Virus record (IMG/VR): IMGVR_UViG_3300046684_000163
Coordinates: 1-35,680 of that record
DNA length: 35,680 bases
Origin: a virus
Reading direction: 5' to 3' (one strand)
The translations under genes and the position numbers were made by a program. The notes beneath the pieces were generated by a model. It saw only the letters and a program-made list of their open reading frames with translations. It did not search any database and was not told the DNA's origin. Each line of letters begins with the position of its first letter. Within the stretch, counting starts at the first letter, position 1. Positions 9,979 to 35,680 of the stretch are shown in pieces.

Positions 9979-10009
9979 AAAAAAACCCCCGACCTGTGAG
10001 GGCCGAGGG
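9979..10009 (-). terminator. Leader terminator just downstream of the late promoter
   Basis: Minus-strand hairpin with CCCTCGGCC and GGTCGGGGG arms, a 6-base loop and seven T. It lies about 50 bases after the predicted late transcription start and 33 bases before the holin ATG. A lambda tR'-like stop that Q would override is the natural reading. Confidence 0.75.
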
Positions 10010-10065
10010 CTAAGGGAATGACTGTGCAGTGCCACCGTGGCCGCAACATCACCACGATGAAGCAA

Positions 10066-10094
10066 ACGATAGGGAAAAGTGCCAGGGCTGTCAA
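10066..10094 (-). promoter_or_regulatory. Predicted late promoter (pR'-like)
   Basis: On the minus strand a consensus -35 TTGACA (10089-10094) is separated by 17 bp from TATCGT (10066-10071). Transcription would start near 10059 and run through the leader terminator into holin and all head and tail genes. Q encoded at 12904-13326 is the likely antiterminator. An imperfect operator-like sequence lies upstream at 10111-10127. Confidence 0.75.
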
Positions 10095-11192: not shown

Positions 11193-12494
11193 TTAAACAG
11201 CGCTGCACGCCTGATGATTCAAGGCGTCCAGGCCTTTCGGCATTTCGGCCTGTCTCGCTTCTGTCTCGGCCTGATAGCCGGTCAATTGGTCGAAGCCTCG
11301 GTCGTTCAGCCAGGTGTTCCAGCACTCCAGTGCGTCGCGCTTCTGCTGCTTTAAGGTGGTGTGGATGTAGGTCGCACTGATGCCGGGCAGTTGGTGGTTC
11401 AACAGAAACTCACCGACTTGAAACTCGACGCCGAGGTCAGCCCAACAGGTGCGCGCCACCTTTCTCAGGTCGTGACTGGTCCACTCGCCAGACCCTAAAG
11501 GTTTGAACAGTTGGTCGGCTTGTTTGGGATTGATTGGCTGGCCGTTACGCGCGGGGAACAGGTACGCCCCGACATAGCTGGCGGCTTTTTGCTGGTCACG
11601 ATAAGCGCGCAGGAAGTGGCAGATTTGATTGGTTAAAGGGACGACCAACTCTTGCCGGGTTTTCGCCTCAGCCGCTGGAATGAACCACTCCCCGTCTTCA
11701 AGGTTGATGTTTTTCCACTTGGCCAGGCGGGTTTCACCGATGCGCGTGCCATGGGCCAGCATCATCACCGCCAGGGCCACCGAGGCCGGCAGTTCGTCTT
11801 TGAGGCTGATCAGATGGGCCAACACACCGCGCAGTTGATCCGGGCGAATCGCCCCGGGTTTGGCTTCGATACTGGCGGCAATGAAGTCGGGGAAGGTGAA
11901 GCCGGCCAGCGGGTTGACGCTGATCAATTTCAGTTTGGTGGCTTGTTTGAAGGCGCCCATCAGCACGCCGAACACCTGACGCACGTAGGCCAGTGAGTAG
12001 CCTTCCTGTAGCGGCCAGATCAACTTTTCATCCAGGCGCGACTGATTCATGTCGGCCAACTGCTCACCGGCCAAGCGCGGCCGTAAGTGGCACTTGATCA
12101 CCGAACGAATGGCGTCTTTACGTTTGGTCGACTTGTTGCGGTCGCGCTTGTTGCGGTCCAGATACCACGTCAGCAGCTCGCCCACGGTCTGCCAGCCATC
12201 GACGGCTACTGATGCGGATGGATCAATGGCCAGGCGCTGGAGGACCTTGGGCAGCGCTTCCATAAAGGCCGAGGTGTCCAGGGCGGGCCAGTTGGCGATT
12301 TTGCTGTACGGGTTAGGGTTGCCCTTGTGGTAGGTGACCACGTACCAACTGCCCGACTTGCGCGAGGCGTGGTAACGAAACAGGACGGGGCGGCGGGTGT
12401 CGCGCAGTTGTTTGACGGTGGGGTCAGCGGCGTGGCGCTTGATGGCGGCGTCTGACAGCGCAACGCTGACAGTGCCTGTATCGGCTTGAGGCAT
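11193..12494 (-). CDS. int: Tyrosine recombinase / phage integrase
   Basis: A 433-aa site-specific recombinase. The catalytic set is visible: Arg251 in HGTRIGETR, a Lys candidate near 279, His341-x-x-Arg344 in HDLRK, His367 in LLNHQ and Tyr376 in ATYIH. The core-binding helical domain covers about residues 100-200. The N-terminus (VKQLRDTRRPVLFRYHASRK) resembles the arm-binding part of P4-type integrases. AAGGAG lies 8 bases before ATG 12494. In a genome that also carries a replicon and par genes it could integrate the phage or resolve multimers; the sequence does not say which. Confidence 0.93.
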   Translation of the reverse strand: MPQADTGTVSVALSDAAIKRHAADPTVKQLRDTRRPVLFRYHASRKSGSWYVVTYHKGNPNPYSKIANWPALDTSAFMEALPKVLQRLAIDPSASVAVDGWQTVGELLTWYLDRNKRDRNKSTKRKDAIRSVIKCHLRPRLAGEQLADMNQSRLDEKLIWPLQEGYSLAYVRQVFGVLMGAFKQATKLKLISVNPLAGFTFPDFIAASIEAKPGAIRPDQLRGVLAHLISLKDELPASVALAVMMLAHGTRIGETRLAKWKNINLEDGEWFIPAAEAKTRQELVVPLTNQICHFLRAYRDQQKAASYVGAYLFPARNGQPINPKQADQLFKPLGSGEWTSHDLRKVARTCWADLGVEFQVGEFLLNHQLPGISATYIHTTLKQQKRDALECWNTWLNDRGFDQLTGYQAETEARQAEMPKGLDALNHQACSAV

Positions 12495-16376: not shown

Positions 16377-16389
16377 AATGGAGGTTCGC

Positions 16390-17031
16390 ATGGGCAAGCG
16401 CATCGGCGTCTTTTCTCAGAAGGGCGGTGTCGGCAAGACAACTATCTGTGAGGCGCTTGGGGTGACCTATACCCTCGGCGGTTGGGATGTATTGCTGGCC
16501 GACTTGGATATCGACCAATCATCTAGCTACGAATGGCTGCTTGACCGTCTACAAAATGCAAAGCTATCCCCGATCAATGTCCAGGCTTTCGGCACAGCAG
16601 CCAGCGCCCTCAAGGCGTCAGAGAAATACGACCTGACCATCTTCGACGGCCGCCCGCTCGCCTCGACCATGACCGCCGAGCTGGCCAAGGTCTGCGACCT
16701 GATTATTCTCCCGACTGGCATGGCTAAGACTGATATGCGCCCGACCGTACGCCTGGCTAACACACTAGTCGACAAGCACGGCGTAGACCCGGCGCGCATT
16801 GCCCTGGTACTGAACCACGTAGGCGACAGCGGCAAAGAGCTGGTCGAGTGCCGAAATTTTTTAATGCAAACCGACTACACCCTGCTGCCCTCACTCTATG
16901 AGCAGGACTGCTATCGCCGCGCCCAGGATTCCGGTAAGGCGATAGTAGAAACACAATTCGCCGGGCCGCGCGAACAAGCGGACAGCTTGGTATCCGCGAT
17001 TGACAGCCTGCTAACTAAGCTGTCTAAATAA
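16390..17031 (+). CDS. parA: ParA-type partition ATPase
   Basis: A 213-aa deviant Walker ATPase. Walker A QKGGVGKTT covers residues 10-18, including the signature lysine (KGGVGKT), Walker A' is LLADLDIDQSS, and Walker B is LTIFDGRPL. It lacks the N-terminal HTH of P1-type ParA, so it is the short (type Ib, ParF-like) form that works with a small ribbon-helix-helix partner. ATG 16390 is chosen over ATG 16378 because GGAGG lies 6 bases upstream of it. It ensures inheritance of the circular prophage. Confidence 0.93.
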   Translation: MGKRIGVFSQKGGVGKTTICEALGVTYTLGGWDVLLADLDIDQSSSYEWLLDRLQNAKLSPINVQAFGTAASALKASEKYDLTIFDGRPLASTMTAELAKVCDLIILPTGMAKTDMRPTVRLANTLVDKHGVDPARIALVLNHVGDSGKELVECRNFLMQTDYTLLPSLYEQDCYRRAQDSGKAIVETQFAGPREQADSLVSAIDSLLTKLSK

Positions 17032-22613: not shown

Positions 22614-22614
22614 C

Positions 22615-22666
22615 GGTTCAACCCCGGATAGCGGCCTTGGCGTAATGCCCGGCCTTGGGATGAACC
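22615..22666 (-). promoter_or_regulatory. 5' hairpin before the 104-aa gene
   Basis: GGTTCA and TGAACC arms, extended by CCC/GGG, ending one base before the ATG. Encloses two CCAAGGCC copies 18 bases apart, as in the hairpin at 21740-21787. Confidence 0.5.
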
Positions 22667-22676
22667 TTATGGGGCT

Positions 22677-22712
22677 TTCGTTATTTCGTCAATTCGTTAA
22701 TTCGTTATTTAC
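22677..22712. repeat. TTCGTTAA-type repeat block G
   Basis: Four tandem octamers (TTCGTTAT, TTCGTCAA, TTCGTTAA, TTCGTTAT) upstream of the first gene of the accessory block. Confidence 0.78.
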
Positions 22713-22719
22713 GAATTCA

Positions 22720-23373
22720 AACCTGCACCAGGCCGCTGCCGGCAGATCTGCACGACCTAAGCGCCCAGGGCGAACGCTAGGCGCGAACCTGGTCAAGGGT
22801 GGTCACGCCCTGGACCTTGCCGGGAATCGCCCCAGGCAGGCGCGGCTTAGCCCGCAGGCCTACAAATGTCGTAAGCGAACCCCCTACACTGATTGCTGGA
22901 GCGCTTGCGCGACGGATAGGGCGTAGCCGGCGCGTGAAGGAGCGAAGGGACGTCGACCAGGGCTGATGTCGGGCGCGGTGTTGGCACGGCCCACAGCGAC
23001 TGGAAGGCGCCTCACTGACGGAACGGCGGCGGTACCGACGCCGAGCTGTGTCCTTGCCCCGCGCCTCCAGGCGCGAAGTGGGCAGTCATTTTATTTCGTC
23101 AGCCCGTCATGCACACCTGGCACGGTTCATGAGCTTTAACGGCTCTTTCTTTTAAGCCTTGCGGTACCACTACACACCATAACTTGCAGATTTATAAAAG
23201 CAGGAAGGATGCCTGCGCGCGGCCGTGGACTTTTTGCTGGGTTCGGGTGCATCTCGGGAGGGGAAAAGGGTGCAGCGAGAGGGGATTTGCAGCGCCTGGC
23301 CGCCCGCTGGGGGCTTTCCTGGGCGCCAGGCGTGCGAATGCACCGCCTTGGGCGGTGCGCGGGATGGCGGGGC
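22720..23373. other. Long non-coding region downstream of repA; candidate replication origin
   Basis: No supported gene in about 650 bases. It holds GC-rich runs, an AT-richer patch near 23085-23200 and a hairpin GCACCGCC-TTG-GGCGGTGC at 23340-23358. IncFII/IncI-type replicons have their CIS element and origin just downstream of repA, which is this position. No clear DnaA box (TTATNCACA) was found, so the origin assignment is positional only. Confidence 0.4.
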
Positions 23374-24255
23374 TTAGGGGCTGGGGTAGCGGATGTTGAA
23401 CAGCTTGATTCGCTGCGACACCGACAGCGACTGGTTGTCCGGCTCGGCCATGAAGGCGGTCCAGGCGGCCGCTCGGGCGCGCTCGTTATCTTGGGCGGCC
23501 TGGGCCTGGGTCAGCGCTTCCTGGCGGCGCCGGGCGGCCTGGGCCTTGACGTGGGATTGCTTGCGCACTTCGCGTTCGGCGGCGTTATTGATCAGGGCGT
23601 CCGCGCGTTTCTTGCCGAAGGTTTCCAGCAGTTGCTTGCGCTTGGCTTTCTTCTGCGTGCGGGCCTCGGCGAGCTGGTAGCCCAGGCCGAGGTGAATGAA
23701 GAAGCGCGGGCGAATGTTGATCGTCACGCGGGTGATCCAGTAACGACCGTTGTGGCAGATCCGGCGCATCTTGCGGCGCACATAGCCGGACGCCTCCAAG
23801 GCGGCCATCAGGCGCGAGACGGTCCACTCTTGCAGGCTGGTGTCTTCGGCCAGGCCGCGCTGGCGGTTGAGGTGAAAGTCGCCGGTCTTGTTGTCGATGT
23901 AGCCCAGTACCAGGGTGGCAATGTCCATGCGCGCCAGGATTGGCTCGATGATTTCGGCCAGCGAATCCCAGCGTTTTTGGTTGGTGCGGTAGCCGCTGGT
24001 TTGGTAGACGTCGAATTCGCGCAGCCACTTGCACTGGCGGTCTTTGGCTTCTTCCCGCACGCGCTCGGCGGCTGTGCCGAGGAAGGTCCGGCGCTGGCTG
24101 TCGGTCAGGGCGCGCGGCCGGCGCTGCTGCGCCGAACGATCGACACGCTTGAGGCGTTTGGCGGGGGCTTTGGTCTGGACAGCGGACAGGCCGCTATAGA
24201 CGGCAGATTCGGGCGAACCTGGGAGGTAGTGGACGGTAGCCTTGGCGCGCTTCAC
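23374..24255 (-). CDS. repA: Plasmid replication initiator, RepA of IncFII/IncI-like type
   Basis: A 293-aa basic protein, close in length to R1 RepA (285 aa). It has a DNA-binding-like central part (SLQEWTVSRLMAALEASGYV then RRKMRRICHNGRYWITRVTI) and a long basic C-terminal helix region (QKKAKRKQLLETFGKKRADA, EREVRKQSHVKAQAARRRQE), like IncFII RepA. The start is the GTG at 24255, inside the stop of a 37-codon leader ORF (GTGA overlap). A longer frame from TTG 24369 overlaps the leader and is less likely. It initiates replication at the origin, probably downstream. Confidence 0.82.
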   Translation of the reverse strand: MKRAKATVHYLPGSPESAVYSGLSAVQTKAPAKRLKRVDRSAQQRRPRALTDSQRRTFLGTAAERVREEAKDRQCKWLREFDVYQTSGYRTNQKRWDSLAEIIEPILARMDIATLVLGYIDNKTGDFHLNRQRGLAEDTSLQEWTVSRLMAALEASGYVRRKMRRICHNGRYWITRVTINIRPRFFIHLGLGYQLAEARTQKKAKRKQLLETFGKKRADALINNAAEREVRKQSHVKAQAARRRQEALTQAQAAQDNERARAAAWTAFMAEPDNQSLSVSQRIKLFNIRYPSP

Positions 24256-24365
24256 GGGCGACCACCGACAGCCAAGGCCAGGCGCAGAACGCGGGCCAGG
24301 GGCTGCAAATCTATCAGCCCCTGCAAAAAGCCGGGGCGGCCTTCTACTGAGGCTTCGCCGATCAT
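24252..24365 (-). CDS. RepA leader peptide (Tap/RepY-like)
   Basis: A 37-codon ORF (MIGEASVEGRPGFLQGLIDL...) ending in a TGA that overlaps the repA GTG. In IncFII (tap) and IncI (repY) plasmids, translation of such a leader is needed to translate repA. AGGGAA lies 9 bases before the ATG, in the arm of a small hairpin (CCCTA-TAGGG, 24375-24389). No peptide homology is expected for these leaders; the arrangement is the evidence. Confidence 0.72.
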   Translation of the reverse strand: MIGEASVEGRPGFLQGLIDLQPLARVLRLALAVGGRP

Positions 24366-24390
24366 CCAAAACTTCCCTAATGGCTAGGGC

Positions 24391-24419
24391 TTGCTTATGC
24401 GGTGATCAGCTAATAGACT
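24391..24419 (+). promoter_or_regulatory. Predicted promoter of the antisense RNA
   Basis: TTGCTT (24391-24396), 17-bp spacer, TAGACT (24414-24419) on the plus strand, directed against the repA mRNA leader. Confidence 0.5.
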
Positions 24420-24425
24420 TCTACC

Positions 24426-24500
24426 TGCCCGGTGGGAAGCCAATTTTTTGTGCTGATCGCCAGAAACCCCCGTCCCGCCAAGGTCGGGGGTTTTCTTTTT
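24426..24500 (+). ncRNA. Predicted antisense RNA controlling repA (CopA/Inc-like)
   Basis: About 75 bases, ending in a terminator hairpin: 9-bp stem AAACCCCCG/CGGGGGTTT (24464-24472 with 24485-24493), inner CC/GG pairs, and a loop of exactly CGCCAA (24476-24481), followed by TTCTTTTTT. The mRNA strand thus shows a UUGGCG loop. That hexamer is the known pairing loop of IncI-alpha/IncB/IncL/M replicons. A complementary CGCCAA occurs on the mRNA at 24247-24242, just inside repA. Binding of this RNA would block leader and repA translation. Confidence 0.65.
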
Positions 24501-24586
24501 TAAGCCTGCCGAAAACTTTCTAATTCTTCTTGCTGCTGTGCCCCGAGGGGCTGACGGCGCTCAGAATAACGCGCCGATCTTTGGTC

Positions 24587-24603
24587 GTCCACAATTAGTG
24601 TAA
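24587..24603. promoter_or_regulatory. Weak repressor-operator-like site with adjacent palindrome
   Basis: GTCCAC-N5-GTGTAA matches one arm of the operator consensus fully and the other at 4 of 6 positions. It overlaps a perfect 14-bp palindrome GTGTAAATTTACAC (24598-24611). It lies upstream of the rep leader transcript and could link immunity to copy control. Confidence 0.35.
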
Positions 24604-24605
24604 AT

Positions 24606-24788
24606 TTACACAACCTTTAGCGAAACAACGGCCTGCCGCAACGTCTCCAGTTGCAGCGATTCCCCAGGGTGCGCCGTGTCGTCGTTGGCTTTTTGAATGC
24701 ACAACCACGCAACGTACTGATTAATCGCGTCGATAGTAGACGCTTGGTCACTTTTGATCAAAGGGTTTACAGAGGGGGTATTCGGCAT
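24606..24788 (-). CDS. Hypothetical small protein upstream of the rep region
   Basis: A 60-aa protein from ATG 24788 (MPNTPSVNPLIKSDQASTID), with AGGAAGGAAC just upstream; the frame extends ten codons further without a good site. One helical segment (AINQYVAWLCIQKAND) and a second at the C-terminus (SLQLETLRQAVVSLKVV). Its stop lies in the 14-bp palindrome. Not recognised; small regulators precede rep genes in several plasmids. Confidence 0.6.
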   Translation of the reverse strand: MPNTPSVNPLIKSDQASTIDAINQYVAWLCIQKANDDTAHPGESLQLETLRQAVVSLKVV

Positions 24789-34542: not shown

Positions 34543-35680
34543 TTACGCCGCGTCGGGGTACTGCAAACGGAATTGATACAGCAGCGCAAACACGCGCAAC
34601 TGATTCACCAGGTCCGGCGGGAACAGCACGTTGAGGCGGTTCGGGTTGGCCGCATCGCGCTCAACGATCAGGTTGGCCTTAAACAGCTCCATGTTCTCAA
34701 CGATGCCGGCGCGCTCCAGCTCGCCATAAGCGGCGATCAGCTCGCCGCGAATCACCAGCGGCGTGACGATGGCCTGGCCGGGGCCAAAGTTGGTGCCGTC
34801 ATTGGCCAGTTTGTGCCGGCCATACTTGCTGGTAATGCGCGATTGCAGGACGCGCAGCACGTGGGCCGACTGGTGCAGCGGCTCGCTGTCCATGTACGAG
34901 TTGTCAGTCTGGCCAAAGGCGTTTTTCTGGTAGGTCGTCACGGCCCGCTGAATCCGCATCGCACTGCCGGAATAGTTGAACGTGGCAATCCCACTGCCCA
35001 GCAAGGCTTGTGACTCGTCGAGTAGGAAACGATCACTCGACGGCGCCGGGTCGATCCCGAGCAAGGCACCGCTTTGCGTCGGCCGCGCCGGGTCGGCACT
35101 GATGAACACCGCCGTGCGCGCACCGAACTGCGCCGCCACTTCCCACACCGGCTGGGGAATGCTGGTTTCCATGCCGCCGATGCTGACGTGCGGATCGTTA
35201 CGCAAACGCCCGGCCGCCACCAACTGGCCCAGGGTGCCGCGCTTGGCGCTGTAGACGTGGCCGTAAATCTGCTTAGCCCACGACCAACGACCCGCGCTGT
35301 CGTTCATCACGTCGCGCCAGTCGTCCAGCGTGGACGCATCCGTCCAGGGCTGGGTGATGAACTCGAATGGTTCGTCGCCCAGGGCGGCCAAGGCGACGGC
35401 CATGTCCGGCGTACCGGCACCGGCCCCCATGGCGCCGACCGTCACCGTCAGACCGGCCGGGGTCATTTCGCCATTGACGCGACCCAGGCGATTCAGCGAC
35501 AGCGTAATGTCGTTACCGAGTTCGCCCTTGAACTTGCAGGTCAGCGTCACCACGCCGGCGACCGCTGCTGCCGAAACCGGCAAGTCCAGCGCTTCATTGA
35601 TCGCCGTGGCCAGCGCCGCCGCCGCCGCCGTGGCGCTGGCCAGCTCCGGCACAATCGCACGCACCCGCTTGCCGGCCACG
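34543..35680 (-). CDS. Contractile tail sheath protein, C-terminal part (continues at 1-486)
   Basis: The last two thirds of the Mu gpL-type sheath; the frame runs off the window end and continues into 486-1 after removal of the 127-base overlap. Family motifs include TQPWTDASTLDDWRDVMNDS and YGHVYSAKRGTLGQLVAAGR, and the conserved C-terminal section VITPLVIRGELIAAYGELER ... FPPDLVNQLRVFALLYQFRL. The whole protein is 498 aa. Confidence 0.95.
   Translation of the reverse strand, partial: VAGKRVRAIVPELASATAAAAALATAINEALDLPVSAAAVAGVVTLTCKFKGELGNDITLSLNRLGRVNGEMTPAGLTVTVGAMGAGAGTPDMAVALAALGDEPFEFITQPWTDASTLDDWRDVMNDSAGRWSWAKQIYGHVYSAKRGTLGQLVAAGRLRNDPHVSIGGMETSIPQPVWEVAAQFGARTAVFISADPARPTQSGALLGIDPAPSSDRFLLDESQALLGSGIATFNYSGSAMRIQRAVTTYQKNAFGQTDNSYMDSEPLHQSAHVLRVLQSRITSKYGRHKLANDGTNFGPGQAIVTPLVIRGELIAAYGELERAGIVENMELFKANLIVERDAANPNRLNVLFPPDLVNQLRVFALLYQFRLQYPDAA
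35554..35680. repeat. Right copy of 127-bp terminal repeat
   Basis: Exact duplicate of window positions 1-127. Joining the two copies restores one uninterrupted tail-sheath gene of 498 codons, close to the length of Mu gpL. Confidence 0.93.

Follow-up and report, generated by a model that had tools for sequence, protein, structure and literature searches.

Control regions of the REx-C type (RepJ, RepA-PFP, RepA-RA2 and RepA-Pa; Bardaji 2017, PMC5304414) have a first stem-loop that is also the terminator of an antisense RNA, an antisense promoter in the third structure and a leader gene overlapping rep. They have been swapped between unrelated rep genes, and leader-less versions exist. All these characters recur at the locus described here. 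The same study reports that repJ is necessary for replication, and its experiments with chimeras led the authors to argue that no pseudoknot forms with sequences close to rep. The IncI-alpha, IncB, IncK and IncL/M replicons resemble this locus in the size of the antisense RNA, in a UUGGCG target loop and in a leader coupled to the initiator. In the inc-alpha region of repABC (p42d; PMC3155836), binding of the antisense RNA replaces a large stem-loop, in which the Shine-Dalgarno (SD) sequence is free, by an inhibitory structure, much as we propose below.

The whole stretch of DNA analysed (the window) is virus record IMGVR_UViG_3300046684_000163 (35,680 nt). Bases 1-127 and 35554-35680 are identical, an exact end overlap of 127 nt, so the record very likely represents a circular genome, about 35.55 kb in size, of a tailed phage. 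It encodes the major capsid protein, portal, protease, both terminase subunits, sheath, baseplate and tail fibre, together with a minor (tape-measure-like) tail protein; the sheath gene (34543-35679) probably crosses the junction of the circle. Most structural genes are common to the window and a 35,695-base contig of a Pseudomonas genome (G051:C24), at 72-97% identity, the tail fibre match being weaker, and the complete P. aeruginosa plasmid pPAC1.3b carries a related Rep and virion genes together. Three further genes bear on the lifestyle of the virus:

11193-12494: tyrosine recombinase
16378-17031: ParA-like ATPase
23374-24255, minus strand: rep (repA), 293 aa, GTG start, a distant relative of the RepJ family of Pseudomonas plasmids

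Virion, replication and partition genes are found on one circular molecule, the combination by which a phage-plasmid is recognized. The virus is probably a phage-plasmid, living in Pseudomonas as a circular plasmid, because a circular tailed-phage genome carries both ParA and a RepJ-related initiator; plasmid replication is predicted here from gene content. That the replicon very likely sits on a circular phage genome was a point absent from the initial annotation. Rep matched RepJ of pPsv48C (tblastn E=9e-17, 31.9% identity over 75%), and its identity to the RepJ family is about 30-33%. No family was found for it in Pfam (E≤0.001), NCBIfam or PHROG, and by the Pfam result it is not a RepA of the IncFII/IncL/M type. 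Searches of a phage database yielded no relatives and searches of solved structures no convincing resemblance; the AlphaFold model (mean pLDDT 55) was too poor for use. The stretch on the 3′ side of rep (22614-23374), several hundred nucleotides of which contain no obvious gene, is 71-80% identical to close relatives and is a candidate origin of replication.

The region upstream of rep contains the following features:

24229-24266, minus strand: rep ribosome-binding region GGUGG, which folds locally with codons 5-8 into a hairpin, consistent with coupling
24252-24365, minus strand: leader peptide ORF of 37 codons, the TGA of which overlaps the rep start (GTGA)
24375-24389, minus strand: hairpin CCCUA/UAGGG with the leader SD AGGGA (24378-24374)
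24391-24419, plus strand: antisense promoter TTGCTT-17-TAGACT
24427-24500, plus strand: predicted antisense RNA of about 73 nt, its start taken from the -10 box and its end from the terminator
24464-24501, plus strand: intrinsic terminator of the antisense RNA, with a T run and CGCCAA (24476-24481) in the loop
24464-24493, minus strand: mRNA hairpin SL-I, presumably targeted by the antisense RNA; its loop contains UUGGCG (24481-24476)
24563-24591, minus strand: candidate sense promoter TGGACG-17-TATTCT
24598-24611, minus strand: perfect palindrome GTGTAAATTTACAC, a short distance upstream of the sense promoter candidate

An RNA-controlled replicon had been recognized here in the initial annotation, from the 37-codon ORF with its TGA over the rep GTG, the opposite-strand promoter and the terminator hairpin with a CGCCAA loop. 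All these elements are indeed present at the positions given, the terminator with its T run, and the general interpretation, an RNA-controlled replicon with a predicted antisense RNA and a leader translationally coupled to Rep, is supported.

Sixteen distinct close leaders have in common a near-invariant core that begins at SL-I and extends to the leader start; more distant leaders were also recovered (L028/L032, L071, L073, L074 and L167/L169/L171). The antisense promoter is invariant among the close relatives and conforms to TTGCNN-17-TARACT in all eight lineages compared. SL-I, which doubles as the antisense terminator, is conserved across lineages; its UUGGCG loop does not vary among close relatives and is also retained by L028 and L074. 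UUGGCG forms a hexaloop only with CC/GG closure, RNAfold favouring CCU/GGG around UGGC. The recurrence of the promoter hexamers, the 17-nt spacer, SL-I and the NTGA overlap in divergent relatives is beyond chance. The candidate sense promoter, a weak match to the consensus, is kept in close relatives. The GTGTA/TACAC arms of the palindrome also recur in close relatives, and therefore suggest a repressor operator, which would constitute a second layer of control. A 60-aa ORF upstream of the control region (24606-24788, minus strand) is conserved in L023, L028, L073, L074 and L167.

The NTGA stop-start overlap was kept in every lineage with a leader ORF. Leaders range from 27 to 41 codons and differ in sequence, the overlap being constant nonetheless, and in L037 it is retained with a diverged leader C-terminus. 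The pN/pS ratio among close leaders is about 0.6, so the act of translating the leader probably matters more than the peptide itself. The rep SD region was mostly paired in all 17 leaders folded.

Beyond SL-I, the mRNA can form helices that share a strand:

24452-24458, minus strand: P2 5′ arm GAUCAGC, within the span of the predicted antisense RNA
24403-24410, minus strand: middle strand GCUGAUCA, able to pair either with the P2 5′ arm or with the leader start (P3)
24357-24364, minus strand: P3 3′ arm UGAUCGGC, overlapping the leader start codon
24303-24314, minus strand: 3′ arm AUAGAUUU of a possible helix P4 (partner 24421-24410), weakly supported

P2 joins the stretch immediately after SL-I to one that precedes the leader start and is flanked by the -10 and -35 boxes of the antisense promoter. 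Its arms differ between lineages (GATCAGC/GCTGATC in the window, GATCGGCG/CGCCGGTC in L028, GATCGACCG/CGGTCGGTC in L073). In an alignment based on sequence only, 82% of the P2 cells were paired, versus 27-50% when the arms were slid, and covariation was 0.302 versus 0.211 for shuffled alignments, with none of 500 shuffles as high. RNAalifold recovered SL-I, P2 and the SD hairpin unprompted. P3 pairs the same middle strand with the leader SD or start codon, as in L167 (AUCAUGUUU/AAACAUGAU, over the start codon) and L073 (GUCCCCUU/AAGGGGAC, over the SD). Comparison of duplex energies with those of dinucleotide shuffles in the eight lineages gave combined values of P=3e-8 for P2 and P=4e-5 for P3, both optimistic because the lineages share ancestry. 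Control pairings with leader codons (codons 9-15 for the first) gave P=0.89 (P2 control) and P=0.92 (P3 control). P3 was individually significant in only three of the eight lineages, and the cognate strands were not always the best partners across lineages. On the evidence of these alignments, P2 is a covarying helix conserved across eight lineages, and P3 would compete with it for the same strand.

The predicted antisense RNA spans SL-I and the P2 5′ arm, but between its 5′ end and the leader start there remain about 60 nt. A switch is the simplest reading, and one we consider reasonably probable: pairing of the antisense RNA over the P2 5′ arm would allow P3 to form, stopping translation of the leader and hence of the coupled Rep. 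In this model, the region would control the copy number of a plasmid-type replicon carried by a circular temperate phage of Pseudomonas, and the rep mRNA would present SL-I first, followed by two competing structures. With no antisense RNA, GAUCAGC would pair with GCUGAUC upstream of the leader start, leaving the leader translatable, and ribosomes ending at the TGA/GTG overlap would unfold the start of rep and begin translation again there. The antisense RNA would recognize the UUGGCG loop of SL-I and extend over the P2 5′ arm; the freed GCUGAUCA could then pair with UGAUCGGC at the leader start, and the loss of leader translation would switch off Rep synthesis and lower copy number. When the part covered by the antisense RNA was blocked during folding, start-site accessibility dropped in about half of the leaders and was unchanged in the window, because the minimum-energy fold of the window already contains P3; the switch model therefore requires co-transcriptional folding. 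The component parts, their conservation, the covariation of P2, the geometry of NTGA coupling and the occurrence of the module before unrelated Reps are supported computationally. We infer antisense transcription, loop recognition and copy-number control from sequence, and put forward the direction of the switch as a proposal.

Simple control of the R1/ColE2-like kind, in which the antisense duplex or its processing by RNase III would block leader translation directly, with no P2/P3 switch, is in our view unlikely. Leader coupling and an antisense RNA would suffice for it, kissing would account for conservation of the loop, and direct control of the first start codon would fit the leader-less L023 and L177; nevertheless, an antisense RNA with the predicted 5′ end would leave the leader SD and AUG uncovered, and the covariation of P2 and the complementarity of P3 would need another explanation. 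Transcription attenuation of the pT181 or repABC kind, with antisense binding causing a terminator to form ahead of either the leader ORF or rep, has a precedent of similar geometry in the repABC antisense RNA, which swaps a large stem-loop for a terminator (PMC3155836). However, a scan of the mRNA strand from SL-I to rep found no terminator-like site; in the window, AAGUUUUGG comes after the CCCUA/UAGGG hairpin, and no U run follows this hairpin in L028, L071, L073 or L167. We regard attenuation as very unlikely.

The initial annotation had suggested an activating pseudoknot of the IncI-alpha/IncB/IncL/M type, formed by the UUGGCG loop and a CGCCAA past the rep start and blocked by the antisense RNA, while allowing that the mechanism may differ. 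The distal partner in question is:

24242-24247, minus strand: CGCCAA in rep codons 3-5, judged fortuitous

Both hexamers do exist where that annotation placed them, with perfect 6-bp complementarity on the minus strand (24481-24476 and 24247-24242), and the UUGGCG loop and leader coupling resemble those of the I-complex and IncM. A functional pairing, however, did not withstand comparison with relatives, a test that the initial annotation had itself set for both hexamers: the loop in the antisense target is conserved, whereas the distal CGCCAA is found in only four of the 16 distinct close relatives (the window, L002, L004 and L037) and in no distant lineage. Where present, it consists of ordinary codons reading KRAK, other relatives having KRVT or a different sequence. 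L028 and L074 have the UUGGCG loop without CGCCAA; the loops of L071, L073 and L167 (CGGCAA, UGGCAG and CUGGCA) have no full complement downstream and no covarying partner; and the unrelated Rep of L023 and L177 begins at the leader start position, so there is no equivalent distal site. When all 6-nt sites that could pair with the loop were listed for each lineage across the leader, none was conserved beyond chance numbers. The minus strand of the window has 24 copies of CGCCAA (about 0.16 expected per 240 nt), and the distal copy is no more than chance. Most close relatives have at -15 a GU-rich UGYYGG that can pair weakly; it also belongs to leader codons, and GU-rich sites of this sort are expected by chance. 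The initial annotation had itself remarked, correctly, on the odd placement of the distal hexamer, which would fall inside the ribosome footprint. With the distal hexamer unconserved and no covariation in lineages with other loops, the pseudoknot is highly improbable. A UUGGCG loop with a nearby CGCCAA is thus not by itself proof of a pseudoknot, a tempting misreading corrected here.

The module harbouring the proposed P2/P3 switch is not tied to one initiator. In L023 and L177, it is followed directly by an unrelated Rep whose start occupies the position of the leader start, and the module therefore precedes at least two types of Rep (window-type and L023/L177-type) without detectable mutual similarity. 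L177, which was outside the training set, scored 86.4 bits with our covariance model R1. This plasmid (pHN2, 82 kb) has a lysis i-spanin gene adjoining the module and its unrelated Rep, and may be another phage-plasmid. Strong matches to model R1 were found in two of 399 Pseudomonas genomes, other matches lying near 30 bits; a search of the same 399 genomes with the pattern TTGGCG...AAGCAAGCCC located the module only in G001 and G051, the other 12 matches appearing unrelated. By eye, the layout of a Halomonas plasmid (L179) is the same, though its R1 score is weak, and no module landmarks were seen upstream of the Rep relatives L072 and L151. In L014, L017, L018 and L019, the same module precedes a Rep that is less closely related (for L014, about 50% identity to that of the window), evidence that the rep gene has diverged or been exchanged. 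A weak R1 match in the structural gene region of the window (9979-10081, plus strand, 16.9 bits) is probably due to chance. The module is not an Rfam family, with no match at the gathering score; the sub-threshold match to the Pseudomonas rnk leader (RF01772 rnk_pseudo; plus strand, 24381-24501, 30.2 bits versus a gathering score of 55) spans the antisense promoter and terminator and probably reflects similarity of a promoter plus terminator.

The full combined reading is tentative, and we are almost evenly divided on it: a portable non-Rfam module, shared by diverse phage-plasmids of Pseudomonas and probably by a plasmid of Halomonas, would close the leader or Rep start by an antisense-flipped P2/P3 switch and would have been swapped between unrelated initiators, its UUGGCG loop being convergent with that of the I-complex and forming no pseudoknot. 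If this is true, a module of about 140 nt would help to decide which phage-plasmids can coexist in one cell, could be predicted from sequence and can precede unrelated initiators. The literature searches made for this analysis turned up no publication in which antisense RNA controls the replication of Pseudomonas phage-plasmids.

Extrachromosomal mycobacterial prophages, with RepA or RNA-based origins, are likewise low-copy plasmids with partition genes, but their RNA-based origins use an initiator RNA, and leader-coupled antisense control of RepA is not described in the available part of that source (PMC7157519). The repABC inc-alpha region differs in forming a terminator, rather than the start-site closure proposed here, and is unrelated in genes and sequence. 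Relative to IncI-alpha, IncB, IncK and IncL/M, the window lacks a conserved distal CGCCAA, has an initiator unrelated by searches and forms other long-range helices. With REx-C, it has in common the stem-loops with an antisense terminator in the first, the leader overlapping rep and the association with several non-homologous rep families (window-type and L023/L177). By contrast, blastn of the window leader against the conserved REx-C core of 175-194 nt gave only chance-level matches (72,556 plasmids, E≤10), REx-C leaders score only about 20 bits with the covariance model, mostly from SL-I, and the available sections on REx-C (PMC5304414) do not describe P2/P3 competition, the window module being carried instead by phage genomes. 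The window module resembles REx-C of Pseudomonas in architecture, not in sequence. We take it to be a genuine copy-control region of the antisense-RNA type, a kind already known in general, belonging to a new sequence family on phage-plasmids, with a helix supported by covariation and, in our proposal, a start-site switch rather than a pseudoknot.
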